Source of the DNA: Desulfosarcina ovata subsp. ovata
Lineage (GTDB): Bacteria > Desulfobacterota > Desulfobacteria > Desulfobacterales > Desulfosarcinaceae
Direction of reading: 5' to 3'
NCBI RefSeq assembly: GCF_009689005.1
Contig: NZ_AP021879.1
Location: 3,844,001 to 3,908,000, forward strand
Length of the DNA stretch: 64,000 nt
Positions 26,845 through 44,686 of the stretch are shown piece after piece. Position 1 is the first letter of the stretch; each line of letters opens with the position of its first letter. The position numbers and the translations under genes are program-made. The notes beneath the pieces were generated by a model, which was not told the origin of the DNA, searched no databases, and saw nothing but the letters and a program-made list of their open reading frames with translations.

Positions 26845-26859
26845 GTAAATGACAACACC

Positions 26860-28053
26860 ATGAAAATCCTCAAACAGCTGTTCAATGCCACCCGGTCCCA
26901 CTTTGAAACCGGTGGCAAACTCGCAAAATTGCATCCCCTCTTCGATGCCATCGAGACCGTGGCCTTTGCGCCGGCGCTGCCCACCCGGGCCGACACCCAT
27001 GTGCGCGACAGCCTGGATCTCAAGCGTTTTATGACCTTCGTGATCATTGCCCTGCTGCCCCCTTTTTTCTACGGCATTTACAACACCGGCTACCAGGCCG
27101 GTGTGGCGTCGGGACAGACGCCGGGAATTATCGCGGCCAGCCTGGCCGGTGCCTGGGTGGTGCTGCCCATGCTGATGGTCTCTTACGGCGTGGGGCTGTT
27201 CTGGGAAATCCTCTTCGCGTCGGTACGCGGACACAAGATCAGCGAAGGGTTTCTGGTCACGGGCCTGCTGTTTCCCATGACCCTGCCGCCGACCATTCCG
27301 CTGTGGCAGGTGGCCGTCGGCATCAGCTTCGGCGTGGTGATCGGCAAGGAGATCTTCGGCGGGACCGGCCGCAATATCCTTAACCCGGCCCTGACCGGCC
27401 GCGCCTTTCTCTTTTTTGCCTATCCGGTCAACATGTCCGGTGACCGGGTCTGGACCGCGGTCCAACAGACCGGTCAGCAGGCCGTGGATGCGGTAACCGC
27501 CGCCACGCCGTTGGCCCTGTCTCCCCTGGCCGCTTCCGGAGAGACGGTGACGCGCATTCTGGCCGATGCCGGCTACACCTTCCAGCGGCTTTTTGTGGGC
27601 AATCTGCCGGGCAGCGTCGGCGAGACCTCGACCCTGATGATTCTGGCCGGAGCCATTTTTCTGCTGGTCACCGGTGTGGCCAACTACCGGATCATGCTTG
27701 GCGGCGTGCTGGGCGTGCTGGCCGTGGCCTACCCCGGCTATCTGCTCAACCTCTCCTCCGGTGGCGAGACGGCGCGCCTGTTCTCCGTGCATCCGGCCTG
27801 GCACCTGGTCATGGGAAGCTTCGCCTTCGGTATCGTTTATATGGCCACGGATCCGGTGTCGGCACCGGGCATGAACCTGTCGCGATGGATCTACGGTTTT
27901 ATCATCGGCGCACTGACCGTAATGATCCGGGTGTTCAACCCGGCCTATCCGGAAGGGACCATGCTGGCCATCTTGTTCATGAATATCTTTGCCCCGCTGA
28001 TCGACCACTTCGTTATCAAGGCGCGGCTGAGCAAAAGGGTGCCCAATGTCTGA
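26860..28053 (+). CDS. nqrB: Na+-translocating NADH:quinone reductase subunit B
   Basis: A 397-residue integral membrane subunit with about ten TM helices. Family features: an N-terminal cytoplasmic helix with FETGGKLAKLHPLFDAIE, the GTGRNILNPALTGRAFLFFAYP stretch, and the covalent-FMN threonine region DAVTAATPL (about residue 215), where the usual S/D-G-A-T becomes T-A-A-T. It also has GSFAFGIVYMATDPVS. It forms the Na+ path with NqrD/E and carries FMN (and riboflavin in relatives). It overlaps nqrC by 8 bases and follows nqrA by 15. Confidence 0.94.
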   Translation: MKILKQLFNATRSHFETGGKLAKLHPLFDAIETVAFAPALPTRADTHVRDSLDLKRFMTFVIIALLPPFFYGIYNTGYQAGVASGQTPGIIAASLAGAWVVLPMLMVSYGVGLFWEILFASVRGHKISEGFLVTGLLFPMTLPPTIPLWQVAVGISFGVVIGKEIFGGTGRNILNPALTGRAFLFFAYPVNMSGDRVWTAVQQTGQQAVDAVTAATPLALSPLAASGETVTRILADAGYTFQRLFVGNLPGSVGETSTLMILAGAIFLLVTGVANYRIMLGGVLGVLAVAYPGYLLNLSSGGETARLFSVHPAWHLVMGSFAFGIVYMATDPVSAPGMNLSRWIYGFIIGALTVMIRVFNPAYPEGTMLAILFMNIFAPLIDHFVIKARLSKRVPNV

Positions 28054-28756
28054 TCAATTGAAATCCATCGTTTTTACCGCCGTCATTGCCCTGGTGTGCA
28101 GCCTGCTGCTGACCGGTGCGGCCAGCGGCCTCAAGGCGCGCAAACTGCGCAACGTGGCCGTGGACCGGCAGAAAAACATATTGAAGAGCGTGGGGCTGGT
28201 CAAGGCCGACCAAAAACCGTCCGCGGCTACGATCGAAGCCCTTTACCATGCGAATATTCGCTGTTACGCCATGGCCGGGACCGGACAGATCCTGGCGGCG
28301 CATGCGGACACAGCGGGCCTTCCGGTGTGCTTCTACGTCAAGCAGGACAAACCGGAAGCCTACATTTTGCCGGTTGATTCGCGCGGGCTGTGGGGCAAGA
28401 TCCACGGCTACATGGCCCTTGAAAACGATGGCAAAACCGTGGCCGGTTTCTCCGTATACAGCCACAACGAAACGCCGGGACTAGGGGGAGAAATCGAAAA
28501 GCCGTGGTTCCAGAAAAACTTTGTGGGCAAGAAAATCGTCGATGAGCGCGGGAATTTCGTTTCCGTAGGCATTGCCAAGGGCAAGGTGGCCGAGGTGATC
28601 GCCAAGGACCGCCAGAACAACTATGTGGACGGGATTTCCGGGGCCTCGCTGACCGGTAAATTTCTCACCGGCGGTCTGAAAGAGGTACTGCAGGAGTATG
28701 AACCGCTCTCCAAAGAGTTCAGGGCGGGCGCGGTATCGCTGCCCGCGGGAAGTTGA
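28046..28756 (+). CDS. nqrC: Na+-translocating NADH:quinone reductase subunit C
   Basis: A 236-residue subunit with an N-terminal TM helix (about 7-27) and a periplasmic FMN-binding domain. The flavinylation motif for ApbE is DGISGASLTGK (about residues 192-202), with the acceptor Thr in SGASLT. GLGGEIEKPWFQKNFVGK is the other family landmark. Electrons pass from the NqrD/E iron centre through this FMN to NqrB. The ATG overlaps the nqrB end. No apbE gene is present in the window, so the flavin transferase must be encoded elsewhere. Confidence 0.94.
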   Translation: MSDQLKSIVFTAVIALVCSLLLTGAASGLKARKLRNVAVDRQKNILKSVGLVKADQKPSAATIEALYHANIRCYAMAGTGQILAAHADTAGLPVCFYVKQDKPEAYILPVDSRGLWGKIHGYMALENDGKTVAGFSVYSHNETPGLGGEIEKPWFQKNFVGKKIVDERGNFVSVGIAKGKVAEVIAKDRQNNYVDGISGASLTGKFLTGGLKEVLQEYEPLSKEFRAGAVSLPAGS

Positions 28757-28808
28757 GCGCAACGGGAGAGAATCGCATCAATAGCCAATTAAAGGTGAAC
28801 AGTTTGCC

Positions 28809-29426
28809 ATGAAACTGACCCAATCCCCCACATTTAAAGCTTTTTCAGAGCCGATCGTGAAAAACAACCCGGTCTTTATTCAAAGTCTGGGAATTTGCTC
28901 GGCCCTGGCCGTTACCGTGCAGCTCAAGACTGCCCTGGTCATGGCGCTGGCCATGACCCTGGTCACCGCTTTTTCCAGCCTGACCATTTCCGCCATGCGC
29001 AAAGTGATTCCGCGCAATGTGCGCATGATCGTGGAGCTTTCCGTGATCGCCTCACTGGTGATTCTGGCCGACGAGGTGTTGCGGGCCTTTTTTTACGATA
29101 TCAGCAAGCAGCTTTCGGTTTTCGTCGGTCTGATCATTACCAACTGCATCGTCATGGGCCGCGCAGAGACGTATGCCCTGGGCAACCCGCCGCTGCGATC
29201 CTTTATGGACGGCCTGGGCAATGGTGCCGGCTACGGGTCGGTGCTGGTTACCGTGGCCTTTATCCGTGAACTGCTGGGTGCCGGCAAGCTTTTCGGTTTT
29301 GCCGTTGTGCCGCAGGCCTTTTACGATTTCGGCTATATGAACATGGGATTCATGCAGCTGGCGCCCGCTGCCTTCATCATCATCGGGCTGCTGGTGTGGC
29401 TGCAGAAGACGCTGATGAAGGGTTAG
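28809..29426 (+). CDS. nqrD: Na+-translocating NADH:quinone reductase subunit D
   Basis: A 205-residue membrane protein with six TM helices. Homologous features are [17 protein letters not shown] (cysteine of the intramembrane iron site), then [17 protein letters not shown] (second cysteine) and [16 protein letters not shown]. With NqrE it holds the 2Fe-2S or Fe site buried in the membrane. It lies in the nqr operon 52 bases after nqrC; AAAGGTGAAC provides the ribosome site. Confidence 0.95.
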
Positions 29427-29472
29427 GGGTATATACGAACAAACGGCCAATAACGGCCGGGAAGTGGCGAAT

Positions 29473-30081
29473 ATGGAAAACCTGATCGGATTATTTCTGA
29501 ATTCCGTGTTTGTGGGCAACATCCTGCTCTCCTACTTTCTGGGGATGTGCTCTTTTGTGGCGGTTTCCAAAAACATGGATACGGCCATCGGCCTGGGCTT
29601 TGCCGTGGTTTTCGTGCTCTCCATCACCGCACCGGTGAATTGGCTGGTTTTCCAGTACCTGCTCTCTCCCGGGGCGTTGCGCTGGGCCGGGCTGGAAGGC
29701 GTTGACCTGAGCTTTCTCAAATTTATTACCTTTATTGCCGTGATCGCCGCCATTGTCCAGATGGTAGAAATGGTCATCGACCGCTATTCACCGGTGCTGT
29801 ACAATGCCCTGGGCGTATTTTTGCCCCTGATCGCGGTCAACTGCGCCATCCTGGGGGCATCCCTTTTCATGGTGGAGCGCAACTACACCTTCATCGAAAC
29901 CATGGTCTTCGGGGTCGGTTCCGGGGTCGGCTGGCTCATGGCGATTGTTTCCATGGCAGCCATCCGCATCAAAATGCGCTACGCCAATGTGCCCAGGGGG
30001 CTGGAAGGCTTTGGCATCACCATGATCGTCACCGGGCTGATGGCCATGGGCTTTATGCTCTTTTCGGGCATCACGCTGTAA
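29473..30081 (+). CDS. nqrE: Na+-translocating NADH:quinone reductase subunit E
   Basis: A 202-residue membrane protein with six TM helices, inverted-topology partner of NqrD. Landmarks: [24 protein letters not shown] (first cysteine), [15 protein letters not shown] (second cysteine) and [17 protein letters not shown] 29473 is used rather than GTG 29464 because it begins MENLIGLF, the usual family N-terminus, and follows GGGAAG. It contributes the intramembrane iron centre of the pump. Confidence 0.94.
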
Positions 30082-30094
30082 TAAGGAGTCTGTT

Positions 30095-31321
30095 TTGATA
30101 TACATCGCCGGAACCACTGTATTTCTTGCGGTGATCCTGATCCTGGTGGGACTGCTGCTCTTTGTGGAGGGCAAGGTGGTCCAGAAAGGAAACAACCGGA
30201 TCATCATCAACGATGACGAAAATAAAAGCATCGATGCGCCGGCCGGTAAAACACTGCTTTCGGCCCTGTCGGCCAACGGGATTTTCATCCCTTCGGGCTG
30301 CGGCGGCGGTGGTGCCTGCGGAATGTGCAAGTGCAAAGTGGTGGCGGGTTCCCGAGGACCGCTACCCACCGAACTGGCCCACCTTTCCCGAAAAGAGCGC
30401 CAGGACGACATTCGTCTGGCCTGCCAGATGAAAGTCAAAGAAGATCTGCGGATCCGGATCCCCGATGAGATTTTTGCGGTCAAGAAATACACGGCCACGG
30501 TGGTGTCCAATGAAAACGTGGCCACCTTTATCAAGGATCTGATTCTTGAGCTGGATGGTGGCGAACACCTGAATTTTACTGCCGGGGCGTATATCCAGAT
30601 CGATATCCCGGAATATGAAATCCCCTTTGAGCATTTCCGCATCCGGGTGGCCGAGCGCTATCGCCCCGACTGGGACCGGTTCAACCTGTGGGGCCTGCGG
30701 GGCAAGAACCTGGAGCCCGTGTTCCGGGCATACTCATTGGCCAATCCACCGGCTGAACCGTCCCGGCTGCGTTTTACCATCCGCATCGCCACGCCGCCGC
30801 CGGGGACCAAAGACCTGCCGCCAGGGACCGGTTCCACCTACATTTTTGATCTTAAACCCGGAGACAAGGTGACCTTGAGCGGCCCCTTCGGCGAGTTTGC
30901 CGTAAAAGAGGCCTCGAACCGCGAGATGTGCTTTGTGGGCGGTGGTGCCGGCATGGCCCCCCTGCGCAGCCAGATTCTCGATCAACTCGAACGGCTCAAA
31001 ACCCAACGGACCCTCTCCTTCTGGTACGGTGCCCGATCCCGATTGGAACTTTTTTTCGATGAGGAATTCAAGGGGCTGGCGGAGAAATACCCCAATTTTT
31101 CCTACCATGTGGCCCTGTCGAATCCCCTGCCCGAGGACCACTGGGAGGGGCTGACCGGCTATATTCATCAGCAGCTTCACGATACCTATCTGGCCGACCA
31201 CAAGGACCCCACCGAGATCGAGTACTACCTGTGCGGACCGCCGATGATGGTTTCCGCCGTGGAAGCCATGCTGGATGACCTGGGCGTGGAGCCGGAAGTG
31301 ATTGCCTACGACAAGTTTTGA
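30095..31321 (+). CDS. nqrF: Na+-translocating NADH:quinone reductase subunit F
   Basis: A 408-residue NADH-oxidising subunit. It has an N-terminal TM helix (about 3-24); a 2Fe-2S ferredoxin domain with CGGGGACGMCKC and a distal LACQ cysteine; an FAD domain with RAYSLANPP; and an NADH-binding domain with FVGGGAGMAPLRSQI and YYLCGPPMM. The start is TTG at 30095, fixed by AAGGAG 6 bases upstream and by the N-terminal TM helix; no ATG fits. It passes electrons from NADH via FAD to 2Fe-2S and then to NqrD/E. It is the last gene of the nqr operon. Confidence 0.95.
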   Translation: MIYIAGTTVFLAVILILVGLLLFVEGKVVQKGNNRIIINDDENKSIDAPAGKTLLSALSANGIFIPSGCGGGGACGMCKCKVVAGSRGPLPTELAHLSRKERQDDIRLACQMKVKEDLRIRIPDEIFAVKKYTATVVSNENVATFIKDLILELDGGEHLNFTAGAYIQIDIPEYEIPFEHFRIRVAERYRPDWDRFNLWGLRGKNLEPVFRAYSLANPPAEPSRLRFTIRIATPPPGTKDLPPGTGSTYIFDLKPGDKVTLSGPFGEFAVKEASNREMCFVGGGAGMAPLRSQILDQLERLKTQRTLSFWYGARSRLELFFDEEFKGLAEKYPNFSYHVALSNPLPEDHWEGLTGYIHQQLHDTYLADHKDPTEIEYYLCGPPMMVSAVEAMLDDLGVEPEVIAYDKF

Positions 31322-32443: not shown

Positions 32444-34417
32444 ATGGTCGAGAAGAAAGTCGGAACAGCAAAAAAAGAGATCGAAATAAAGGATTTGACG
32501 ATATGCAAAACGACGCAGCAAATGCTTGAAAAAGCCCGTCGTGATGGTGTCGAAACAGCGTTTGACCGTGCCGCCAACATGAAAGCATGCCCCATCGGCG
32601 CCGATTCAGCGTGCTGCAAACACTGTTCCATGGGGCCTTGCCGGCTGAATGCAAAAGATCCATATGGAAAGGTCGGCGTCTGCGGGGCCACCATTGATAC
32701 GATCCAGGCCCGTAATTTTGCCCGGATGGTGGCATCCGGTGCCGCTGCCCATACCGACCATGGTATGGCCATGGTCGATCTCTTCCGTGAGGTGGTTACC
32801 GGACACATCAAGGAATACCGGATTAAGGATGTCGGGAAACTGATCAGTGTCGCCCAATCGATCGGTATTGAAACCGAGGACCGCAGTGTCGAGGAAATTG
32901 CCACCGATCTCTACAAAGAGTTGGAACGGACCTACACCCAGGTGGAAGGAGAAATTCCCTTTGCCAAGCGTGTGCCGGAGAAGACCCTGGAGACCTGGCG
33001 AAAGCTGGGCATTGTTCCCAGGGGGTCCATGCGGGAAATTATGGAGCTGATGCACCGGACGCACATTGGTGTTGATCAACATTATGAAAACATCACCAAA
33101 CAGAGCAGCCGAACGGCCCTGGCGGATGGCTGGGGCGGGTCCATGGTGGCCACGGAGATTTCCGACATCCTTTTCGGTACTCCCACCCCAATTGCGGTGG
33201 ATGTTAACATGGGTGTCCTTAAAGAGGATCATGTCAATGTGATTATTCATGGTCACGAGCCCAATATGTTCGAATCCATGCTGGTCTCGGTGAATGAACC
33301 CACCCTTGTCCAGGCGGCCAAGGACGCTGGTGCCCAGGGCATCAACCTCGTGGGGATGTGTTGCTCCGGTGCTGAAATGATGTCCCGCCACGGAATCCCC
33401 CATGCGGGAAATTTCATGTCAACGGAGGCGATTTTGGTAACCGGAGCGGTGGATGTCATGTGTGTGGATATCCAGTGCATCAAGCAAGGGCTGGTGAGTG
33501 TGGCCGACTGTTATCAGACGCCGCTGATTACCACCAACACACGGGCCCACATTGAGGGTGCCACACATATTGAATTTGACGACCATGATCCCCAAAAATG
33601 CACGGATGAGGTGGTCATCAAAGCGATCACCCGTTTTAAAAACCGAACGGCAGCAATTGAGATTCCCGATATCAAAAATACGGGAATTCACGGGTTCTCC
33701 CATGAGTATATCAATTATATGCTGGGGGGATCGTTCAGGGGGTCCTATACGCCATTGAACGATAATATCATCAATGGTCGCATTCGTGGCGTGGCCGGGG
33801 TCGTGGGTTGCACCAACCCGCGGATCAAACAGGATTGGGCCCATGTGGAACTGGTTAAGGAACTCATCAAAAATGATGTCCTTGTGCTTCAGACCGGATG
33901 TTCCCAGATTTCCCTGGCAAAAGAGGGGTTTTTGACACCGGAAGCGGCGTATCTGGCCGGCCCGGGGTTGAAGGAGGTCTGCGAGACGGTTGGTATGCCG
34001 CCGGTACTGGGAATGGGCTCCTGCGTGGACAACAGCCGGATCCTTATCGCTGCTTCAGAAATGGTCCGGGTGGGCGGACTGGGCACGAGCATCGCCGATT
34101 TACCAGTAGTCGGTGCCGCTCCGGAATGGATGAGCGAAAAAGCCATATCCATTGGACATTACTTTGTCGCCTCGGGTCTTTATACCGTGTTCGGGGTCAC
34201 TTTCCCCATTGTCAAGGAGACCAAGTTCCACAAGCTACTGTTCGACGGGCTGGAGAAGCAAGGCCTGGGCAAGTGGGGGTTCAGCGCCGATCCGTATGAG
34301 ATGGCCCGCATGATGATCGCCCATATCGATAAGAAGCGCAAGGAACTGGGCATTGACAAGGCCAGGGACCGTGTGCTCATGGATATGTCCGACCGGCGGG
34401 ATATCGACGCCGCCTGA
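32444..34417 (+). CDS. cooS: Anaerobic Ni-Fe carbon monoxide dehydrogenase catalytic subunit
   Basis: A 657-residue CooS. Near the N-terminus the B/D-cluster cysteines are seen as CPIGADSACCKHCSMGPCRL and GVCGAT. C-cluster ligands appear in order: His in VIIHGHEP, Cys in GMCCSGAEM, Cys in VDIQCIKQG, Cys in VVGCTNPR, Cys in LQTGCSQ and Cys in LGMGSCVDNSR; the catalytic His/Lys region lies near the C-terminus (GHYFVASGLYT). Reaction: CO + H2O to CO2 with two electrons, usually to ferredoxin, in the cytoplasm. AAGGAGGG precedes the ATG. No cooC (Ni insertion), cooF or acetyl-CoA synthase gene is adjacent, so it is a monocistronic CODH with a strong terminator. Confidence 0.96.
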   Translation: MVEKKVGTAKKEIEIKDLTICKTTQQMLEKARRDGVETAFDRAANMKACPIGADSACCKHCSMGPCRLNAKDPYGKVGVCGATIDTIQARNFARMVASGAAAHTDHGMAMVDLFREVVTGHIKEYRIKDVGKLISVAQSIGIETEDRSVEEIATDLYKELERTYTQVEGEIPFAKRVPEKTLETWRKLGIVPRGSMREIMELMHRTHIGVDQHYENITKQSSRTALADGWGGSMVATEISDILFGTPTPIAVDVNMGVLKEDHVNVIIHGHEPNMFESMLVSVNEPTLVQAAKDAGAQGINLVGMCCSGAEMMSRHGIPHAGNFMSTEAILVTGAVDVMCVDIQCIKQGLVSVADCYQTPLITTNTRAHIEGATHIEFDDHDPQKCTDEVVIKAITRFKNRTAAIEIPDIKNTGIHGFSHEYINYMLGGSFRGSYTPLNDNIINGRIRGVAGVVGCTNPRIKQDWAHVELVKELIKNDVLVLQTGCSQISLAKEGFLTPEAAYLAGPGLKEVCETVGMPPVLGMGSCVDNSRILIAASEMVRVGGLGTSIADLPVVGAAPEWMSEKAISIGHYFVASGLYTVFGVTFPIVKETKFHKLLFDGLEKQGLGKWGFSADPYEMARMMIAHIDKKRKELGIDKARDRVLMDMSDRRDIDAA

Positions 34418-34499: not shown

Positions 34500-35849
<1,350 letters not shown>

Positions 35850-36146
35850 TTTCGCTCTAAATTCACTTGAAGAATGGGGGTGTCGAGACGGAGCCCGATC
35901 TGCGATCGGGTAACCTCTAATGAGCGAACGTAAGATAACATCATTATTTGAAATGTTCAACCTTAATGGAAGGGCGTCAGGTGGCGGTGCGGCTGGGCTG
36001 CGGGTTTTATATAATTGGAGGACATCGGCAAACCATGCGGAACTTTGGAAAGCGATACATGGAAACGCTGGACGGCGTCCATGCGAGACACAAAAACCAA
36101 ATCGTAAGTATCTATTGCATTGATTAATATGATTGATGGTTTGGTG

Positions 36147-36303: not shown

Positions 36304-36535
36304 GCAATTGCTCGGGAATCCTTGTCCGTCAAGGTTTCCTCCATCCATTCCTGCCGTTTTCCAATCTTTTTTCAGTCAACCGGCGTGATCCATGTCTCGA
36401 TTGTTGCATCGCCTGTGGGGGGCATGGCGGATTCGCGTTTGATGGACGCGGGATCGGCTTGGCCTCACGCCCCATAAGAAAGGGATGCCTATCTATCGTT
36501 ATTCGTGCATCTTACGCACGGTCAGGAGAGAGACA

Positions 36536-39500
36536 ATGACAAAAAACGCCATTGGTTCCGTGTTGGTCGTTGGTGGGGGCATCGCCGGGATGCAAAGTGC
36601 CCTGGATCTGGCGAACTCGGGTTACTATGTTTACCTGCTCGAAAAATCGCCTGCCATCGGGGGGGTGATGGCCCAGTTGGACAAAACCTTCCCCACCAAC
36701 GACTGCGCCATGTGTATCATGAGCCCCATTCTGGTGGAAGTCGGCCGGCATGTGAACATCGAATTGATTACCTATGCGGATCTGGAACGTATTGACGGCG
36801 GTCCGGGGAATTTCCGGGTGGTCATCGATAAGCACGCTGGATACATCGATACCGATCAGTGCACCGGTTGCGGCGACTGTTCCCAGGCCTGTCCGGTGGA
36901 GTTGCCGGATGCATACAATCTGGGACTGGTCAGCCGCAAAGCCACCTACAAGCAGTATGCCCAGGCCATCCCCATCAACTACACCATCCAGAAAACCGAC
37001 AAGGCGCCCTGCCGCCTGGCCTGTCCGGCGGGGATCAACGTGCAGGGGTACGTGCAGATGGTCGGCCAGGGCAAGTATGCCGAGGCCCTGAAGATCATCA
37101 TGGATGACCTGCCCCTGCCCGGTGTGCTGGGACGCATCTGCCCCCACGGCTGCGAGGACGCCTGCCGGCGTTGCGAGGTGGATCAGCCGGTGGCCATCCG
37201 CGAGCTCAAACGCCTGGCCGCCGACCAGGTCGATCCGCGCACCATCGAGATCCCCATGGCAGAAAAGCGCGAGGAACGTGTGGCCATCATCGGCAGCGGC
37301 CCGGCCGGCCTGAGTGCGGCCTATCACCTGGCCCGCCGGGGCATTTTGAGCACGATCTACGAGGCCCTGCCCAAGGCCGGCGGCATGCTGCGGGTGGGCA
37401 TTCCGGATCACCGCCTGCCGCCGGCGATCCTGGACCAGGAGATCGAAATCATCACCAACATGGGTGTGGAGCTTAAGACCAATACGCCCCTGGACGGCGA
37501 CCTGACCGTGGACAGTCTTTTCGATCAGGGGTTCAAGGCGGTCTACCTGGCCCTGGGCGCCCACAAGGGCATCACCCTGGGGGTTCCCGGCGAAAAGACC
37601 GCGGGCGTACGCCAGGGGGTGGATTTCCTGCGCGAGGTCAACCTCACCGGCAAGGCACCGGTGGGCAAGCATGTGGCCATCGTCGGCGGCGGCAACGTGG
37701 CCATTGACGTGGCCCGCTCGGCCGTGCGCCTGGGCGCCGAGACAGTACAGATCATCTACCGCCGGACCCGTGCCGAGATGCCGGCCTGGGAAGAAGAGAT
37801 CCAGGCCGCCGAGACCGAAGGGACCGAGATCACCTATCTTGCCGCTCCCCAGGAGATTCTTTCCGAAAACGGCAAGGTGACCGGCCTGCGCTGCATCCGC
37901 ATGGAACTGGGCGAGCCGGACGCATCAAACCGCCGCCGTCCGGTACCGGTACCGGGCAGCGAATACGACCTTGAGATCGACCAGCTGATTCCGGCCATCG
38001 GCCAGCGGCCGGACCTCTCCTCCATCGAGGATGTGGACGGCGTGGGATTCACCCGCTGGAGCACCACGGAAGTGGACCCGGTGACCTATGCCACCGGCCG
38101 GCCGGGCGTGTTTGCCGGCGGCGACCTGCAGAGCGGTCCCTGGGTGGCCATCGGCGCCATTGCCGCGGGCAAGGAGGCGGCCGAATCCATCGAGCGCTAC
38201 CTGGACGGTGCGGACATGGCCGCCGGCCGCGAGCCCATCGAGCGGTCCGAGCCGGTCTACCGTCCGGTGCCCGAGGGCGAGCCAATTGCAGCAAGGGTCA
38301 AGCCGCGCGAGCTGGAACCCGCGGCGCGCAAGGGCAACTTCAACGAAGTGGAACTGGGCATCACCCCCGAAGCCGGCCAGGCCGAGGCCGCGCGCTGCCT
38401 GAACTGCGGCTATTGCTGCGAGTGCTACCAGTGTGTCGAGGCCTGCGGCGCCGGCGCCGTGACCCTTGCCACCCACCAAATGCAGGACCGGCAGATCGAG
38501 CTTAGCGTCGGGTCGGTGATCCTTTCTCCCGGTTTTACCCCCTATGACCCGTCCGGGCTGGATTTCCTCGGTTATGGCAAAAATCCCAATGTAATGAGTT
38601 CCATTGAGTTCGAGCGCATCCTGGCCGCGTCCGGCCCCACCACCGGGCACCTGGTGCGGATGTCCGACCACCGGGAACCCAAGAAGATCGCCTGGCTGCA
38701 ATGCGTGGGGTCACGGGACCAGAACCGTTGTGACAATCCCTACTGCTCGTCGGTCTGCTGCATGTATGCCATCAAGGAGGCGGTGATCGCCAAGGAGCAT
38801 TCGGCCCAGCCCCTGGACTGCGCCATCTTCTACATGGACATGCGTACCCATGGAAAGGATTTCGAACGGGCCTACAACGATGCCAAGGGCAAACACGGCA
38901 TCCGTTTCATCCGCAGCCGGATTCACACCGTAGAAACCGTGCCGGGTACGGACGACGTTTTCGTGCGCTACGTGCTGGACGACGGTCAGACGATGGAAGA
39001 GCAATTCGACATGCTGATCCTTTCGGTGGGCCTGGAAATCTCCAAAGACCTGGTCGATCTGGCCAAACGGCTCGACATCTCGCTGACGCCGGGGAATTTC
39101 TGTGCCACCTCCAGCTTTTCGCCGGTGGAGACCTCAAGGCCCGGCGTTTTCGTTTGCGGCGCCTTTCAGGGGCCGCGCGACATCCCCCAGAGCGTGGTCG
39201 ATGCCAGTGCGGCGGCGGTGGCGGCCGGCGAACTGCTCAGCGATGCCAAGTTTACCCTTACCAAGACGCGCGAGGTGGTGCCCCAGATCAACGTGGCCGG
39301 GGAACGTCCGCGGGTGGGGGTGTTTGTCTGCCATTGCGGGATCAACATCGGTGGCATCGTGGATGTTCCGGGGGTCAGGGATTATGCGGCCACGCTGCCC
39401 TATGTGGATTACGTGGCCGATAACCTGTACACCTGCTCCCAGGACACCCAGGATATCATGACCCAGATTATTAGTGAGAAGAATCTCAACCGGGTCGTCG

Positions 39501-40990
39501 TGGCGGCCTGTACGCCCAAGACCCACGAGCCCCTGTTTCAGGAGACCCTGATCAACGCGGGGCTCAACAAATACCTCTTCGAATTCGTCAATATCCGCAA
39601 CCACGATTCCTGGGTCCATCGCAACAATCCGGATCTGGCCACGGCCAAGGCCAAGGACCTGGTGGGCATGGCCATCGCCAAGGTTGTCCTGATGGAACCG
39701 TTGGAGGAGGCCGAGCTCACCATCGGCCAGTCGGCCATGGTCGTCGGTGGCGGTATCTCCGGTATGGCCGCGGCCTTGAGCCTGGCCAACCAGGGGTATG
39801 AGACCCACATCGTGGAACAGACTGGTGGGCTCGGCGGACAGGCCCTGAATCTTTTCCGCACCGCCGATGGGGAAGACATCGGCGCCCGGCTGCGCCAGAT
39901 GGTGGCCGATGTGGAGCAGAACGATAACATTCGCGTGCATTATCATTCGACCTTGAGCACGGTTGACGGCTTTGTCGGCAGCTTTGTTTCTACCCTGACC
40001 ACCGGCGACACAGAAACCGCGATCGATCATGGGGTCACGGTCATCGCCACCGGTGCCCTGCCTCTGGTTCCCAATGAATACAGTTACGGCAGCAGTCCGA
40101 AAATCCTCACCAGTCTGGAGCTGGATCGCCGCTTCATCGAAAAGGACCCGGCCCTGGATGCCATGAATACGGCGGTCTTCATCCAGTGCGTGGGCTCGCG
40201 GGAGACCGAGCGCCCTTACTGCAGCCGGGTCTGCTGCACCCATTCCATCGACAGCGCCCTTTTGCTCAAGGCACGCAATCCCGATATGGACGTATTTATC
40301 CTCTACCGTGACATCCGGACCTATGGGGAACGGGAGTATTTATACAAGGAGGCTCGCGAAAAGGGGATCATCTTCATTCGCTATCAGGTCGATGACAAAC
40401 CGGTGGTCATGGTGGATGGGGATACGGTCAGCGTGACGATCAAGGATCATGTGCTGGGCCGTCCCATTGAAATCGAAACTGACCTGCTGACCCTGGCCAC
40501 GGCCATCGTGCCGCCCAGCAACGACGCCCTGGCCCGGTTCTTCAAGATTCCGGTCAACGACGACGGCTTCTTCGTGGAAAAACACGCCAAGCTCGGCCCG
40601 TCGGAATTCGCCACCGATGGCGTGTTTCTGTGCGGTCTGGCCCACTATCCGAAACCCATTGACGAGGCCATTGCCCAGGGCAAGGCCGCGGCGTCACGGG
40701 CCACCACCCTGTTGGCCCAGCAGAAAATCAACACCAACGGTCAGATCGCCAAAACCGATCCGATGCTTTGCAGCGCTTGCGGGGTCTGCGTTTCCATCTG
40801 CCCCTATTCGGCACCCTCGTTTATCGACGCCGAGGCGCGCATGCATGCGGGCAAGGCCCAGATCAACCCCGTCTTGTGCAAGGGATGCGGTCTTTGCGTG
40901 GCCGCATGCCGGTCCGGGGCCATCCACCTGAAAGGTTTCGACAACGAACAGATTTTTGCGCAGATATTTGAACTCAACGAAGCAGTCTAA
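36536..40990 (+). CDS. HdrA-GltD-HdrA fusion flavoprotein (heterodisulfide reductase A-like)
   Basis: A 1484-residue iron-sulfur flavoprotein with three FAD/NAD modules. Residues 1-145 are the first part of HdrA (GGGIAG at 13-18, Cys-rich DCAMC, ferredoxin motif CTGCGDCSQACP at 109-120). About 155-600 is an inserted GltD/NfnB-like unit (CRLACPAGINVQGYVQ, CPHGCEDACRRCE, GSGPAGLSAAYH, second Rossmann GGGNVAIDVA). About 620-925 finishes HdrA 1 (CCECYQCVEAC, QCVGSRD). About 930-1484 is a second HdrA with CHCGINIGG, GGGISGMAAAL, QCVGSRE and two C-terminal 4Fe-4S sites (CSACGVCVSICP, CKGCGLCVAACR). AGGAGAG supports ATG 36536. It is probably an electron-bifurcating hub in the cytoplasm and the first gene of an operon with flxD, C, B and A homologues. 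Confidence 0.93.
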   Translation: MTKNAIGSVLVVGGGIAGMQSALDLANSGYYVYLLEKSPAIGGVMAQLDKTFPTNDCAMCIMSPILVEVGRHVNIELITYADLERIDGGPGNFRVVIDKHAGYIDTDQCTGCGDCSQACPVELPDAYNLGLVSRKATYKQYAQAIPINYTIQKTDKAPCRLACPAGINVQGYVQMVGQGKYAEALKIIMDDLPLPGVLGRICPHGCEDACRRCEVDQPVAIRELKRLAADQVDPRTIEIPMAEKREERVAIIGSGPAGLSAAYHLARRGILSTIYEALPKAGGMLRVGIPDHRLPPAILDQEIEIITNMGVELKTNTPLDGDLTVDSLFDQGFKAVYLALGAHKGITLGVPGEKTAGVRQGVDFLREVNLTGKAPVGKHVAIVGGGNVAIDVARSAVRLGAETVQIIYRRTRAEMPAWEEEIQAAETEGTEITYLAAPQEILSENGKVTGLRCIRMELGEPDASNRRRPVPVPGSEYDLEIDQLIPAIGQRPDLSSIEDVDGVGFTRWSTTEVDPVTYATGRPGVFAGGDLQSGPWVAIGAIAAGKEAAESIERYLDGADMAAGREPIERSEPVYRPVPEGEPIAARVKPRELEPAARKGNFNEVELGITPEAGQAEAARCLNCGYCCECYQCVEACGAGAVTLATHQMQDRQIELSVGSVILSPGFTPYDPSGLDFLGYGKNPNVMSSIEFERILAASGPTTGHLVRMSDHREPKKIAWLQCVGSRDQNRCDNPYCSSVCCMYAIKEAVIAKEHSAQPLDCAIFYMDMRTHGKDFERAYNDAKGKHGIRFIRSRIHTVETVPGTDDVFVRYVLDDGQTMEEQFDMLILSVGLEISKDLVDLAKRLDISLTPGNFCATSSFSPVETSRPGVFVCGAFQGPRDIPQSVVDASAAAVAAGELLSDAKFTLTKTREVVPQINVAGERPRVGVFVCHCGINIGGIVDVPGVRDYAATLPYVDYVADNLYTCSQDTQDIMTQIISEKNLNRVVVAACTPKTHEPLFQETLINAGLNKYLFEFVNIRNHDSWVHRNNPDLATAKAKDLVGMAIAKVVLMEPLEEAELTIGQSAMVVGGGISGMAAALSLANQGYETHIVEQTGGLGGQALNLFRTADGEDIGARLRQMVADVEQNDNIRVHYHSTLSTVDGFVGSFVSTLTTGDTETAIDHGVTVIATGALPLVPNEYSYGSSPKILTSLELDRRFIEKDPALDAMNTAVFIQCVGSRETERPYCSRVCCTHSIDSALLLKARNPDMDVFILYRDIRTYGEREYLYKEAREKGIIFIRYQVDDKPVVMVDGDTVSVTIKDHVLGRPIEIETDLLTLATAIVPPSNDALARFFKIPVNDDGFFVEKHAKLGPSEFATDGVFLCGLAHYPKPIDEAIAQGKAAASRATTLLAQQKINTNGQIAKTDPMLCSACGVCVSICPYSAPSFIDAEARMHAGKAQINPVLCKGCGLCVAACRSGAIHLKGFDNEQIFAQIFELNEAV

Positions 40991-41018: not shown

Positions 41019-41456
41019 ATGAACAATAATTCTTGGGAACCCAAAATCGTGAGTTTTTTTTGTAACTGGTGCACCTATGGTGCCGCGGACCTGGCCGGCG
41101 TGAGCCGCTTCGAGCATCCCCCCAACACGCGCGTCATCCGTGTTCCCTGCTCCGGACGGGTCAGCCCCAAATTTATCCTGGCCGCGTTCATGAACGGGGC
41201 CGACGGGGTGTGGGTGTCCGGTTGTCATCCGGGGGACTGCCATTACATTGAGGGGAACCTGTACGCCAGGCGGCGGTTTACCCTTCTGAAAAATCAGCTG
41301 GAATACATGGGGGTGGAACCCGGGCGGCTGCATTTTTCCTGGATTTCGTCGGCCGAGGCGTCAAAGTATGTTCAGGTGATCACCGAGGTGATCGACGCGG
41401 TAAAGGCCCTGGGTCCAAACACCCGTTTTGTCAAACACCAGGCGAAGGTAGCGTGA
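41019..41456 (+). CDS. MvhD/FlxD-like 2Fe-2S electron-transfer protein
   Basis: A 145-residue protein of the MvhD family, which carries a 2Fe-2S cluster and docks an electron source onto HdrA. Conserved cysteines are seen in FFCNWCTYGAAD, RVPCSGRVSP and SGCHPGDCHYIEGN. GGGAGAAAG precedes ATG 41019, 28 bases after the HdrA gene. In FlxABCD-HdrABC systems of Desulfovibrio the FlxD subunit is this protein. Here it should link the FlxABC NAD(P)H side to the HdrA fusion. Confidence 0.94.
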   Translation: MNNNSWEPKIVSFFCNWCTYGAADLAGVSRFEHPPNTRVIRVPCSGRVSPKFILAAFMNGADGVWVSGCHPGDCHYIEGNLYARRRFTLLKNQLEYMGVEPGRLHFSWISSAEASKYVQVITEVIDAVKALGPNTRFVKHQAKVA

Positions 41457-41457
41457 T

Positions 41458-42405
41458 ATGTCCGGATACACAGAGAAGATGAGGGAGATCGCCGGCCGGC
41501 TGCTGGGCGACTGCAGTGTCCAGATGGTCATCGGATTCCGCAAGGGGACCCTGCCCATGATGAACGAGCCGTGCTTCGTCACCAACCCCGAACAGGTCCC
41601 GTCGCTGGTCTGGGACAGCAACTGCGGGATCAACCTGGCCAACTACCTGACCAATCGAAAAGAGAAAATCGCCGTTTTCGCCAAGGGGTGCGATTCGCGC
41701 AACATCGTCAACCACATTGTCGAGAACAAGATCAAACGCGATCAGCTGCACATCGTCGGCGTGCCCTGCACGGGGATGATCGACAAGCGCAAGATCACCG
41801 GCATGGTGAACGGTGAGATCCTGGAGACCACCGAGACCGAAGACACCATCAAGGTGCGCACGGCGGAAGCGGAGACGCTTTTCGACAAACGCGAGGTGCT
41901 GCAGCAGAACTGCGCCCTGTGCATTCACCGCAACCCGGTGATCTTTGATGAGATGGTCGCCGATCCGGTGGCCGAGCAGACCGACATCGACCGCTACGCG
42001 GACGTCCGCAAAATCGAGGAGATGGATTCCAAGGAGAAGTGGCAGTTTTTCGATGACCTGCTCTCGCCGTGCATCCGCTGCTACGCCTGTCGCAACGCCT
42101 GCCCGCTGTGCTACTGTCCGACCTGTTTCGTGGACGAATCCAAACCCCAGTGGGTGGGCAAGGGCCAGGATCCCATCGATGTGCGGACCTTCCATTTTTT
42201 GCGGGCCTACCACTGCGCCGGGCGCTGCACCGATTGCGGGGCCTGCCAGCGGGCCTGCCCGGTGGGCATCGACATGCGGCTGTTGACCCGCAAACTGGAA
42301 AAGGACTGCCAGGAGCAGTTCGGCTGGGAGGCCGGGCTCTCCCTGGATCAGCGTCCGGCCCTGGATGTGTACCAAACCAATGATCCGGAGGCTTTTATAA
42401 AATAG
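41458..42405 (+). CDS. FlxC-like iron-sulfur protein (FrhB/FdhB-like plus two 4Fe-4S)
   Basis: A 315-residue cytoplasmic electron carrier. The N-terminal two-thirds resembles the FrhB/FdhB-like domain (VIGFRKGTLPMMNEPCFVT, FAKGCDSRNIVNHIV, GVPCTGMID). The C-terminal third has a clustered CxxCxxCxxxCPLCYCPTCF motif and a second ferredoxin motif, CTDCGACQRACPVGIDM. It follows the MvhD-like gene with 1 base between stop and ATG. Its TAG stop (42403-42405) is at the same time the first three bases of a palindromic element. By context it is the FlxC subunit relaying electrons between FlxA/FlxB and FlxD. Confidence 0.88.
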   Translation: MSGYTEKMREIAGRLLGDCSVQMVIGFRKGTLPMMNEPCFVTNPEQVPSLVWDSNCGINLANYLTNRKEKIAVFAKGCDSRNIVNHIVENKIKRDQLHIVGVPCTGMIDKRKITGMVNGEILETTETEDTIKVRTAEAETLFDKREVLQQNCALCIHRNPVIFDEMVADPVAEQTDIDRYADVRKIEEMDSKEKWQFFDDLLSPCIRCYACRNACPLCYCPTCFVDESKPQWVGKGQDPIDVRTFHFLRAYHCAGRCTDCGACQRACPVGIDMRLLTRKLEKDCQEQFGWEAGLSLDQRPALDVYQTNDPEAFIK

Positions 42406-42550
42406 TGCCCGTCCTGAAACGGCATCTTGCACCCGCCTTCGGCGTTGGGGGGCGCATCCGAATCCTCGAAATATTACATATATTCCTCCGGTTCGAATAC
42501 GCCGCCCGCCTTGAACGCGGGCGCAATCTACCATTTCAGGGCAGGCACTA
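42403..42550. repeat. Palindromic element with CAAGGC/AACGCC motifs, copy 3 (reverse)
   Basis: Outer arms TAGTGCCCGTCCTGAAACGG (42403 on) and CCATTTCAGGGCAGGCACTA (to 42550) pair at 18 of 20 positions. In reverse orientation it carries GGCGTT (42441-42446) and GCCTTG (42508-42513), 61 nt apart. Inner arms GGCGCATCCGAA and TTCGAATACGCC pair with two wobble-type changes. The outer arm resembles that of the element at 50436-50580. It lies between flxC and flxB. Confidence 0.85.
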
Positions 42551-42631
42551 TCGCTCATCCGGTAATCAAATGAAGGATAATGCCGGGCGGGCGTTCTCAT
42601 GCCCACAACTTTTTTGCAAAGGGTAAATGCT

Positions 42632-43696
42632 ATGACGCTGCTTACTATCGACAAACAAAACTGGACGCAAGGATTGGCGGCTGCGGCGGATCATTACCGG
42701 CTGTTCGGGCCGGTCAAGGAGAAGGACCAGCACCGGTTCAAGGCGCTGGAAAAGGGCCAGCTCCCCGACCTGGACCTGGTGAACACCCGCCTGTCGCCCA
42801 AGGACCTGGTTTTTCCCCAGTCCGAAATCATGCTCACGTACTCGCTGGACGAATCCCGTGAGGACCACCATATCATGAAGGAGGCCCATACGGATCACGC
42901 TCCCCGGGCCGTGGTCGGCATGCGTCCCTGCGATGCCAGGGCAATTCAGTTGGTCAAGCTCAACTTCGACACGCCGGATGTCAAGGATCCCTACTGGCTG
43001 AAAGCCTATGAGGCCACCACCTTCATCGGCATGGCCTGCGATACGCCGCTGTCCACCTGTTTCTGCACCTCTGCCGGATGCGGTCCGTACAACGCGGAGG
43101 GCCTGGACATCCTCATGATGGACCGGGGCGGGACCTACCTGGCCAAGATTTTCACCGAAAAGGGCAAGGCCTTTGCCGATACGGCCGGATGGAACCAAGC
43201 CACCCCCGAGGCGGCCGAGGCGTTCGTGGCCGCCAAGGAAGCGGCCGAGGCGAAGATGGTCTCCACGATCAGTACGGACAACCTGGCCGACACCGACCTG
43301 CTTGACCTGCACGGGGCTCCGTTCTGGGATGACATCGCCTTTGCCTGCCTCAACTGCGGCACCTGCACCTTCACCTGTCCCACCTGCTGGTGCTTCGACA
43401 TCCAGGACGAGGTCCAGGGCAAATCCGGCGTGCGCATGAAAAACTGGGACAGCTGCATGTTTCCCATTTTCACCGTGCACACCACCGGCCACAATCCCCG
43501 GGACACCAAGACCCAGCGGGTGCGTCAGCGCTTCATGCACAAACTCAAGTACTTTGTGGACAAGTACCAGACCGGCATCATGTGCGTGGGCTGTGGACGG
43601 TGCGTGCGTCAGTGCCCGGTCAATATCGATATCCGCCGGGTGTGCGAGTTGATGAACAGTTTCAAGCCAGCCGACGCCTGCGTTGCGCAGGGATAA
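42632..43696 (+). CDS. FlxB-like iron-sulfur subunit (sulfhydrogenase beta/AsrA-like)
   Basis: A 354-residue 4Fe-4S dicluster protein of the HydB/AsrA family. Landmarks: GMRPCDARAIQLV, STCFCTSAGCGP, the ferredoxin motif CLNCGTCTFTCPTCWCFDI and a second, CVGCGRCVRQCPVNIDI, near the C-terminus. It forms the usual partner of a FlxA/HydG-type flavoprotein and carries electrons from NAD(P)H-reduced FAD. The start at 42632 follows AAAGGG by 8 bases; ATG 42599 is less likely. It is separated from flxC by 226 bases containing a palindromic element, an unusually large gap inside this operon. Confidence 0.93.
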   Translation: MTLLTIDKQNWTQGLAAAADHYRLFGPVKEKDQHRFKALEKGQLPDLDLVNTRLSPKDLVFPQSEIMLTYSLDESREDHHIMKEAHTDHAPRAVVGMRPCDARAIQLVKLNFDTPDVKDPYWLKAYEATTFIGMACDTPLSTCFCTSAGCGPYNAEGLDILMMDRGGTYLAKIFTEKGKAFADTAGWNQATPEAAEAFVAAKEAAEAKMVSTISTDNLADTDLLDLHGAPFWDDIAFACLNCGTCTFTCPTCWCFDIQDEVQGKSGVRMKNWDSCMFPIFTVHTTGHNPRDTKTQRVRQRFMHKLKYFVDKYQTGIMCVGCGRCVRQCPVNIDIRRVCELMNSFKPADACVAQG

Positions 43697-43799
43697 TCGG
43701 ATTCAAGAGAAGGGTACCGGCGGCGTTATCGGTCGTTGCGGTATGACCGATACAGCGTCCTCCATCTAGCCTTGCCGGGAAGCTTTTCTTGAAGCCGAT
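43696..43799. repeat. Palindromic element with CAAGGC/AACGCC motifs, copy 4 (reverse)
   Basis: Outer arms from 43696 (ATCGGATTCAAGAGAAGGG) and to 43799 (CTTTTCTTGAAGCCGAT) pair at about 20 of 25 positions. Reverse-oriented motifs GGCGTT (43722-43727) and GCCTTG (43769-43774) lie 41 nt apart. The interior is nearly identical to the reverse complement of 25351-25405, while most of the arms differ. It lies between flxB and flxA. Confidence 0.85.
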
Positions 43800-43840
43800 C
43801 GTTTTAGATACGATCTTAAATCCCATGGAGGGAAGAAACC

Positions 43841-44686
43841 GTGCAAAATCCATATTTACCCTATCCGGTCCGCATTGACGACATCACCGTCGAGGCCGAG
43901 GACAAAAGCCTGAAGACGTTCAAATTCGTCTTTTTGAACGAGGGCGACGAGGATCAATTCGCTTACCGGGCCGGCCAGTTCGCCGAACTCTCCATCCCCG
44001 GCAAGGGGGAAATCCCCATCGGCATCGCCTCCTCTCCCGTGGAAAAGGGATTCGTCAAATTCACCGTCAACCGCGCCGGCGTGGTTACCACCCACCTGCA
44101 CAACATGCGCGCGGGCGATCGCATGGGCCTCAGGGGACCCCTGGGCAATTGTTATCCCTGGGATCTTTTGGAGGGCAAAAACATCCTCATCGTGGGCGGT
44201 GGGTTCGCCTTCACCACCCTGCGGTCGTCGATTGTCTATATGCTCGATCCGGCCAACCGTTCCCGATTCGGCAATATCGACGTGGTTTACGGGGCCCGCA
44301 GCCCTGGCATGCTGCTCTACAAGGACGAACTGGTGGAATGGGAAAAACGTGACGACATCAACATGCACATCACCGTGGATGGCACCGACGATCCGGACTG
44401 GAAATACAACATCGGGTTCGTGCCGCCCATCACCGAGCAAAAAGCCCCTTCCGGCGGCGCGGACACCTATGCCATTGTGTGCGGCCCGCCGATCATGATC
44501 AAGTTCACCCAGCCGGTGCTGGAAAAGTTGGGCTACGACCATGACCATATCATCATGAGCCTGGAAAACCGTATGAAGTGCGGCTTCGGCATGTGCGGCC
44601 GCTGCGGTATCGGAAAGGAACTGGTCTGCAAGGACGGCCCCGTTTTCACCTTGAACCAGATTAATCGGACCCCGAGAGAGTACTGA
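43841..44686 (+). CDS. FlxA-like FAD/NAD(P)H oxidoreductase (sulfhydrogenase gamma/HydG-like)
   Basis: A 281-residue flavoprotein of the ferredoxin-NADP reductase/DHOD-PyrK type. FAD region YRAGQFAELSIPGKGE and GIASSP; NAD(P)-binding region ILIVGGGFAFTTLRSSI and IVCGPPIMIKF; C-terminal 2Fe-2S motif with CGFGMCGRCGIG and a distal cysteine (LVCKDGP). The start is GTG at 43841, set by GGAGGGA 8 bases upstream. It oxidises or reduces NAD(P)H and exchanges electrons with FlxB/FlxC. It is the last gene of the operon; there is no HdrB or HdrC gene beside it. Confidence 0.93.
   Translation: MQNPYLPYPVRIDDITVEAEDKSLKTFKFVFLNEGDEDQFAYRAGQFAELSIPGKGEIPIGIASSPVEKGFVKFTVNRAGVVTTHLHNMRAGDRMGLRGPLGNCYPWDLLEGKNILIVGGGFAFTTLRSSIVYMLDPANRSRFGNIDVVYGARSPGMLLYKDELVEWEKRDDINMHITVDGTDDPDWKYNIGFVPPITEQKAPSGGADTYAIVCGPPIMIKFTQPVLEKLGYDHDHIIMSLENRMKCGFGMCGRCGIGKELVCKDGPVFTLNQINRTPREY

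Follow-up and report, generated by a model that had tools for sequence, protein, structure and literature searches.

What is a protein that joins two HdrA units and a GltD/NfnB-like flavin unit in one chain, and what could it do? The question is raised by a 64,000-nucleotide stretch of Desulfosarcina ovata subsp. ovata (contig NZ_AP021879.1, positions 3,844,001 to 3,908,000; hereafter the window, whose numbering is used for all gene positions of this stretch), in which a forward-strand gene encodes 1,484 residues. A preliminary description of the sequence recognised two HdrA units in a row, the first of them interrupted by a GltD/NfnB-like unit, an order that it could not place. This order fits that of HdrL, named in 2009 in Desulfobacterium autotrophicum HRM2 as a heterodisulfide reductase/glutamate synthase fusion (Strittmatter 2009, PMC2702500), and HdrA9, 10, and 11 of ANME-1 have been described as carrying an NfnB insert in the domain that holds it here (Chadwick 2022, PMC9012536). 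The enzyme is thus already known in kind, which answers the main surprise of the preliminary description, and it is common in its phylum; the new part is a mosaic between operons and a conflict between the trees of its modules. We hold, with slightly better than even confidence, that HdrL, a pair of HdrA units in a single chain, is an electron hub whose ferredoxin domain holds an NAD(P)H port that can be exchanged, and that gene conversion has homogenised this port together with the flxCBA genes of the operon.

Architecture and spread of HdrL

The gene is one uninterrupted open reading frame, whose start we placed at the ATG at 36536, preceded by GGAGAG; the longest frame would begin at 36485. 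Scans with Pfam and NCBIfam found Pyr_redox_2 in four stretches, Fer4_20 at residues 155-232, HdrA models, and 4Fe-4S domains that confirm the several 4Fe-4S motifs seen earlier, and phmmer placed a GltD/NfnB block (about 155-633) between four HdrA-matching stretches. The searches bear out the order given in the preliminary description and the position of the unit within the first HdrA (HdrA-1); its limits, put there at about residues 155-600, are corrected to about 153-640. The chain is made up as follows.

36536..40990, forward strand: hdrL, HdrA-1[NfnB]-HdrA-2, 1,484 residues (uninterrupted reading frame, domain scans, phmmer)
36536..36991, forward strand: first half of HdrA-1, residues 1-152, with the flavin adenine dinucleotide (FAD) motif, Cys60, and the first cluster motif of the inserted ferredoxin (C109, C112, C115, C119), from the phmmer alignment to 5odc_A
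36992..38455, forward strand: NfnB/GltD insert, residues about 153-640, with FAD and an NADP-type Rossmann site (RR409-410)
38414..39250, forward strand: second half of HdrA-1, residues 627-905, with the second ferredoxin motif and a thioredoxin-reductase-like domain (C723, C737, C741, C742)
39302..40945, forward strand: HdrA-2, residues 923-1470, with an N-terminal cluster domain (C932, C934, C967, C992), an FAD domain, and a C-terminal two-cluster ferredoxin

The insert sits between the two cluster motifs of HdrA-1's own inserted ferredoxin, and its end overlaps the second of them (C627-C637); its candidate cluster ligands are C159, C163, C202, C206, C210, C621, C624, and K225. In their sequence pattern the two HdrA units are complementary. 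The inserted ferredoxin belongs to HdrA-1, together with an FAD motif and Cys60, which by alignment count corresponds to Cys197 of 5odc_A. An N-terminal cluster domain and a C-terminal ferredoxin are absent from HdrA-1 but present in HdrA-2, where in turn neither an inserted ferredoxin nor a Cys197 equivalent occurs. Complementary halves have been described in fused HdrAs (Chadwick 2022, PMC9012536), and HdrA3/4 of that study show the same pattern as HdrL, whose halves stand in the reversed order.

Structure prediction, one of the checks proposed at the outset, agrees with this division. In an AlphaFold model of residues 1-1190 (mean pLDDT, the predicted local distance difference test, 88.4; predicted TM-score 0.79), the insert has the StnC/NfnABC fold and the remainder of HdrA-1 the HdrA fold: residues 1-905, with the insert skipped, align to 5odc_A by VIA-align with Z 36.7 and 2.3 Å over 426 residues, and also match 8rwn_A. 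HdrA-2 is identified by sequence only, the list of structure matches (Foldseek/VIA) being dominated by the NfnB and HdrA-1 folds. The features of bifurcating-type HdrA, namely the FAD motif, the cluster of the thioredoxin-reductase domain, and the ferredoxin clusters, are present.

We aligned 100 full-length HdrLs (98 distinct) from 108 loci, leaving out one locus without a match at the threshold (L049), five that are not HdrL (L044-L048), and two cut by contig ends (L065, L073). Eighty of the loci, from the phylum, were hand-picked, largely from the top of the match list, and the counts below do not represent a random sample. The three flavin modules are sound: all three GxGxxG motifs are intact, with glycines in 98-100 of the 100 homologues and gaps in two rows at the first motif. 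Thirty-seven columns hold Cys (or selenocysteine, Sec) in every one of the 100. From our count of ligands, nine [4Fe-4S] clusters would be expected in HdrL, beside three FAD. Only two states occur at position 60: Cys, in 58 sequences, and an in-frame TGA, in 42 (43 and 32 in a first set of 75, widened by a relaxed alignment-start cut-off), and the Sec twin of the window gene in the same genome (L002/L042) has its TGA exactly there. In bifurcating-type HdrA, Cys197 completes the N-terminal cluster of the partner HdrA. With Cys60 in one unit and the N-terminal domain in the other, the residue that changes between sulfur and selenium would here be the ligand expected to join the two HdrA units.

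The source genome, a single 7.63-Mb contig, holds the window HdrL, a 79% twin, and a 52% relative. Surveying other genomes for the same architecture gave full-length matches in 25 of 30 genomes of the family, the other five having fragments or HdrA-HdrA matches (four) or none (one). The chain is a genuine, conserved, single gene, and these matches rule out an assembly fusion of separate genes, the outcome that had been named as refuting it. Matches with E 1e-280 or better occur in 195 of 395 genomes across the phylum, a tally that may include HdrA-HdrA fusions without NfnB; the narrowest spans among the matches listed are residues 131-1476, 117-1480, 83-1480, and 6-1424, which cover at least about 131-1424. 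The full order is found on contigs named Moorella stamsii (L072), Solibacteraceae bacterium (L074), and three Desulfobacterota/Deltaproteobacteria (L062, L069, L076), and copies cut by contig ends on Thermincola (L065) and Candidatus Sulfotelmatobacter (L073) contigs.

We filed the protein as HdrL by description, which it fits in being an HdrA/GltD fusion in one chain with mvhD next to it. HdrL1-HdrL3 of D. autotrophicum are each followed by mvhD, and two of the three contain selenocysteine (PMC2702500); the likeness, drawn from their description, lies in the fusion, mvhD, and Sec, whereas the window protein has Cys at its twin's Sec position and FlxCBA as partners, with no dsrABC. That paper calls HdrL apparently unique to its genome, but our searches show a wide spread. 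An HdrL-like protein of Desulfurivibrio dismutans AMeS2 (2025, PMC12142623), an HdrA with two NADH/FAD-binding domains beside MvhD, is said in that paper to resemble HdrL and lies beside fdhAB and Wood-Ljungdahl genes. The ANME-1 HdrA9-11 carry an NfnB-like insert of about 500 residues in the HdrA ferredoxin domain, with NADPH as the proposed carrier; two bifurcation sites are suggested there (PMC9012536), against which we argue below. The purified MetFV-HdrABC-MvhD of Moorella thermoacetica is reported to contain an HdrA with two FAD, to use NADH, and to show NADH:benzyl viologen activity (via PMC5861303), and two FAD rather than three argue against an NfnB insert in it; its partner is MetFV, that of the window HdrL is Flx. 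In Moorella stamsii (L072) the order is hdrC-hdrB-hdrL(1488 residues)-mvhD-metV-metF, with an NAD-type selector (see below). Within the literature passages covered, we found no report of a purified HdrL proven to hold the NfnB unit.

Chains of related make surround HdrL in the genomes. HdrA[NfnB] proteins of only one unit, which start with the N-terminal domain, are whole in L063 and L068, cut by contig ends in L064 and L066, and present in the source genome as L008. The last, a second NfnB-bearing kind of HdrA, lies in L048 (G000:C1:2894500-2914000) beside mvhD and an FdhB-like gene, and this locus also holds another large HdrA-like protein and hdrC- and hdrB-like genes (CCG domain). In other large chains (L078, L098, L106, L123) an NfnB unit is combined, in various orders, with HdrA-like pieces or ferredoxin pieces. 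Four HdrA-HdrA paralogues of the source genome (L004-L007) have the same two units as HdrL and no NfnB insert. Three of them, L004, L006, and L007, in the same order as HdrL, we take to be BamE-type HdrA-HdrA fusions of class II benzoyl-CoA reductase; they lie in or beside class II benzoyl-CoA reductase-like clusters (L044 around L004, L045 around L007, L047 around L006), and the genes of L044 include AOR-like (PF01314) and NuoF-like (PF01512) ones. From these fusions and neighbours, aromatic degradation is likely in the source organism.

The NfnB-type unit, a proposed port, and its operon

The solved structures nearest to the insert are 9bov, 9n5u, and 8oh5 (StnC/NfnABC), ahead of NfnB; in the AlphaFold model, residues 154-642 align by VIA-align to 9bov_A with Z 51.2 and 1.7 Å over 475 residues and to 8oh5_C with Z 49.7 and 1.7 Å over 473. 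At position 225, where bifurcating NfnB has a Glu cluster ligand, the 100 HdrLs have Lys in 90, His in 10, and Glu in none (Lys/His 67/8 in the first set). K225 aligns with K170 of StnC, and the seven Cys and Lys170 of the StnC NADPH domain have counterparts at the aligned HdrL positions (alignment to 8oh5). In StnC, the nearby cluster is reported to be bound by Lys170 in place of the Glu of NfnB, and the FAD has been argued to be non-bifurcating (Kumar 2023, PMC10482914). An NfnB homologue of the same genome (L227) keeps the Glu and adjoins an NfnA/FlxA-like gene. The preliminary description had presented the NfnB unit as a bifurcating site; by analogy with StnC it probably is not one. Given Lys or His in place of Glu and the likeness to StnC, we take the unit for an NADPH port, and any bifurcation would occur at an HdrA flavin. 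The StnC of Sporomusa ovata StnABC and NfnABC (8oh5, 9bov, 9n5u) have this GltD-type NADPH domain in common with HdrL. StnC feeds a separate bifurcating module, which is HydBC/NuoF-type in Stn, whereas that of HdrL is HdrA, with no NuoG/FdhF part; the domain scan found no NuoG/FdhF-like extension in the HdrL chain, and there were no HydBC-type StnAB partner genes among the neighbours scanned.

The likely nucleotide can be read from residues 409-410, a selector pair located where the second strand of the nucleotide-binding fold ends; it is RR in 80, LE in 19, and SR in 1 of the 100 sequences (57, 17, and 1 in the first set). By the general rule for this fold we take RR as the NADP type and LE as the NAD type. 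The window protein has RR, and its neighbour FlxA is expected, by family only, to use NADH; LE occurs in the MetVF-linked relative of the same genome (L043) and in M. stamsii L072. All 28 Flx-linked HdrLs have RR, against 52 of the 72 others, but the Fisher p of 0.0007 ignores descent and is not used as proof. An independent-pairs test of Met partners with the NAD type was not significant.

Downstream of hdrL the operon, which the preliminary description did not report, continues as follows.

41019..41456, forward strand: mvhD (FlpD family), directly after hdrL (PF02662, E 1.5e-51)
41458..42405, forward strand: flxC-like, an FdhB-type adapter with two 4Fe-4S motifs, whose C-terminal part matches FdhB chains by sequence
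42632..43696, forward strand: flxB-like (sulfhydrogenase beta/AsrA family), scoring below the curated cut-offs; the frame may start at 42599
43841..44686, forward strand: flxA-like FAD/NAD(P) reductase with a DHODB-type Fe-S motif (sulfhydrogenase gamma/AsrB/PyrK superfamily)

The AlphaFold model of the FlxC-like protein (pLDDT 89.3) has as best Foldseek match 7bkb_E, the FdhB of an FDH-Hdr complex (TMq 0.75, root mean square deviation 6.5, 19% identity). FlxA, encoded several genes downstream of hdrL, matches the NfnA chains 4ylf_A (E 4.6e-14) and 5jca_S (E 8.3e-11), which belong to the same superfamily. In-frame stops in the MvhD matches of 96 HdrL loci align to Cys18 in 33 and to Cys69 in 28, so many MvhD partners are probably selenoproteins as well. 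Between flxC and flxB lies a 148-nt element (42403-42550) with terminal inverted repeats, TAGTGCC...GGCACTA, that nearly match by eye; it is a single copy in the genome. Ramos and co-workers are said to have reported in 2015 an FlxABCD-HdrABC of Desulfovibrio vulgaris, with FlxA/B/C/D-type subunits next to HdrA. Flx- and MvhD (FlxD)-type subunits would be common to the two by family resemblance, on which the Flx names used here are based; the window operon differs in having no HdrB/HdrC and a doubled HdrA that carries NfnB.

We classed the same-strand runs of 102 HdrL loci by BLAST to proteins of the source genome (ten reference or neighbour proteins checked by Pfam all fitted); contig ends, and TGA-split mvhD genes that break the run, make the counts lower bounds. 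mvhD was found in at least 79 loci, MetV/MetF in at least 42 (L058 doubtful, its Met label being probably spurious), FlxC with FlxB/FlxA in at least 28 (L058 included; L059 and L143 were scored without Flx although flxCBA is present there), FlxC alone in at least 8, dsrC in at least 7, and a CCG (HdrB-type) protein in at least 28; mvhD aside, 18 runs have none of these partners. No CCG protein was seen in the run of 74. Formate dehydrogenase pieces follow FlxC in L167 and L170 (Pfam for L170), and hydrogenase genes follow mvhD in L074 and L194 (Pfam for L194). Judging from these Met, Flx, formate dehydrogenase, hydrogenase, and dsrC neighbours, HdrL would thus take HdrA's place in several known HdrA partnerships. 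In the Sec-type operons of seven genomes (L042, 17180-17497; L052-L057) a dsrC with both C-terminal cysteines stands directly after flxA, and is followed in most of the seven by a YjbQ-like and then a nitrilase-like gene (names by eye).

Our best guess is that HdrL-MvhD-FlxCBA would be a ferredoxin-linked NADH/NADPH transhydrogenase built on HdrA, and the earlier idea that NAD(P)H, ferredoxin, and a third carrier could all meet on one chain appears right. The electron path, reaction, and direction that we infer would be these. NADPH would reduce, or be made at, the NfnB FAD; single electrons would pass through the two clusters of NfnB and the clusters of the inserted ferredoxin to an HdrA FAD, where bifurcation or confurcation, if any, would take place, and not at NfnB. 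MvhD and the C-terminal ferredoxin of HdrA-2 would carry electrons to or from FlxC-FlxB-FlxA, on whose side homology leads us to expect the NADH site. The net reaction would be that of Nfn and Stn: NADH + reduced ferredoxin + 2 NADP+ <-> NAD+ + oxidised ferredoxin + 2 NADPH. Elsewhere, hdrL lies in operons next to MetVF, formate dehydrogenase, or hydrogenase genes. HdrL does not stand in for a missing NfnAB, a reading ruled out by L227 with its Glu and its NfnA/FlxA-like neighbour.

Two other functions have a small chance of being right. HdrL might be a hub from NADH/NADPH to DsrC and sulfite reductase, as suggested by the dsrC genes of seven of the 102 operons, including that of the Sec twin (the L042 copy matches PF04358 with E 7.7e-36), and by hdrL1-mvhD-dsrABC of D. 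autotrophicum, for which such a role was proposed (PMC2702500). The Cys-type operon of the window, however, is without dsrC, as are the orthologous operons of two further genomes (G022 and G023), and no HdrB (CCG) or HdrC was flagged by CCG motif or similarity in the 24-kb neighbourhood of the gene. About as improbable is a chain without bifurcation, a multi-port exchanger (diaphorase) equilibrating NADH, NADPH, and ferredoxin. Nothing in the sequence proves bifurcation, the clusters would suit a simple wire equally, and non-bifurcating HdrA-like proteins exist; yet the cluster cysteines of both HdrA units are retained in all 100 HdrLs and the FAD motifs in 98-100, and an equilibrating wire would presumably waste the energy of ferredoxin.

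A chain with two bifurcating centres, at both the HdrA and the NfnB FAD, is unlikelier still. The NfnB fold and the FAD and NADP motifs are intact, the flavin-capping arginine near the FAD N5 (StnC R239) is retained in 74 of 75 HdrLs, and two sites were raised as a possibility for the ANME-1 HdrA-NfnB proteins (PMC9012536). Against this stand the replacement of the Glu ligand of the FAD-proximal cluster by Lys or His in all 100, the same Lys in StnC, whose FAD is reported as non-bifurcating (PMC10482914), and the closeness of the insert to StnC and NfnABC rather than NfnB.

Proposed exchange of the port between operons

The Sec twin operon lies about 940 kb from the Cys operon of the window in the same genome (G000). 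Their DNA identity is 69% at the start of HdrA-1, 96.5-97.1% in NfnB, 70% at the end of HdrA-1, and 72% in both HdrA-2 and mvhD, and then 98.7% in flxC and 97.2% in both flxB and flxA. Third codon positions are 92-97% identical in the near-identical parts and 52-56% elsewhere. Two blocks, absent from the preliminary description, stand out.

36976..38476, forward strand: NfnB tract, residues about 146-646, 96% DNA identity with the Sec twin, flanks about 70%
41386..44686, forward strand: second block, 96-98% with the twin, covering the end of mvhD, flxC, flxB, and flxA, broken by an intergenic stretch of about 220 nt

The twins of G022 are alike (97-98% in the near-identical parts versus 67-76%) and those of G023 show the pattern more strongly (99.6-100% versus 70-74%), whereas orthologues are evenly similar along the operon, at 81-87% between G000 and G022/G023 and 91-96% between G022 and G023. 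The limits of the NfnB tract in the three genomes are residues 146-646, 146-650, and 140-650. In all, the mosaic was found in 4 of 16 within-genome HdrL pairs (14 genomes). The fourth, in G363 (L155 and L170), is 99% identical in HdrA-1 and NfnB and 60% in HdrA-2, and the switch, near nucleotide 2820, falls where one HdrA unit gives way to the other; the partners differ, one copy lying beside Flx and one beside formate dehydrogenase (FDH) genes.

The trees of the two parts conflict. The HdrA-core tree groups the three Cys copies together (100/100), while the NfnB tree pairs the twins of G000 (100/99) and of G023 (99/99). The Sec/Cys state requires 7 changes on the core tree and 14 on the NfnB tree, and partner type 6 and 12; the NAD/NADP type, in contrast, requires a single change on the NfnB tree (2 if the columns of the pair itself are omitted) and 9 on the core tree. 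Forcing the 19 NAD-type rows into one clade on the core is rejected by the approximately unbiased test (p-AU 7.75e-8, 46 rows). The trees were quick and include long-branch rows, L043 being an extreme long branch in that of NfnB. Since the history of the selector fits the NfnB tree and not the core tree, the port looks exchangeable between HdrA engines. The NfnB port and flxCBA look to have been homogenised between paralogous operons by gene conversion, with the HdrA core and MvhD keeping their own history. Our literature search, which included gene conversion with heterodisulfide reductase, found no report of an HdrL mosaic or tree conflict. That the near-identity reflects strong purifying selection, which on nucleotide sites would act on the NfnB and flxCBA modules, or a one-time composite rather than repeated conversion, is very improbable: third positions are 91-100% identical in the modules and 50-60% in adjacent HdrA, twins within a genome (96.5-100%) are closer than orthologues (82-87% for G000 with the other two, 93-96% for G022 with G023), and the NfnB trees pair the G000 and G023 twins where core trees pair by Cys/Sec type.

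Several results weigh against an HdrA-based hub with a conversion-homogenised NADPH port. The G022 twins stand beside G023 in the NfnB tree and are not resolved as a pair, and 12 of the 16 within-genome pairs show no near-identical block. The link between Flx and the NADP type is not significant in an independent-pairs sign test (median p 1, with at most 1 informative pair per pairing), and the flavin-capping arginine is common to both types and cannot tell them apart. An HdrB might act in trans, and with a CCG protein in 28 of 102 operons part of the family may still reduce disulfides. Finally, with the canonical NfnB (L227) and its NfnA/FlxA-like neighbour in the genome, a second transhydrogenase may not be needed.

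Beyond our reading of HdrL as a hub with an exchangeable port, we propose tentatively, and with clearly less confidence, a joint scenario. Besides NfnAB and StnABC there would be a third chassis for ferredoxin-dependent NADH/NADPH transhydrogenation, HdrL-MvhD-FlxCBA, built on HdrA. The port of HdrL would be a true cassette: conversion would repeatedly have copied NfnB and flxCBA between the Sec and Cys isozymes, cutting at domain borders and leaving the HdrA/MvhD engine distinct, and NAD and NADP ports would have been swapped several times between engines, which would allow one engine to be re-addressed to another nucleotide pool.

Neighbouring genes and significance

Upstream of hdrL lie two genes that accompany the Cys-type operon in all three genomes in which it was seen, the first adjoining hdrL.

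34500..35960, reverse strand: sigma-54-dependent PAS/AAA+ regulator, divergent from hdrL
32444..34417, forward strand: Ni CO dehydrogenase catalytic subunit (TIGR01702, 590 bits, cut-off 478)

As a CO dehydrogenase gene accompanies each of the three Cys-type operons, CO-derived ferredoxin may be among the inputs, which we regard as a lead only. A scan for sigma-54 promoters was uninformative (25 matches versus 21 expected). Just upstream of the CO dehydrogenase gene, positions 25501-31321 hold nqrA-like, nqrB, and nqrF genes (sodium-pumping NADH:quinone reductase), and a transposase-like gene with a DDE_Tnp_1-associated domain lies at 52728-54251 on the reverse strand.

Most genomes of the family (25 of 30) have an HdrL-type hub, and such hubs occur widely in the phylum. 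If the NfnB unit is a non-bifurcating NADPH port, then two unrelated bifurcating engines, the HydBC-type one of Stn and HdrA here, have each received the same GltD part, and such enzymes would be readable from their ports. The conversion mosaic amounts to a natural dissection, in which HdrA and MvhD stay together and NfnB and FlxCBA are interchangeable. The pair of isozymes with Cys or Sec at the Cys197-type ligand, beside near-identical ports, offers a ready experiment on the role of selenium in HdrA.

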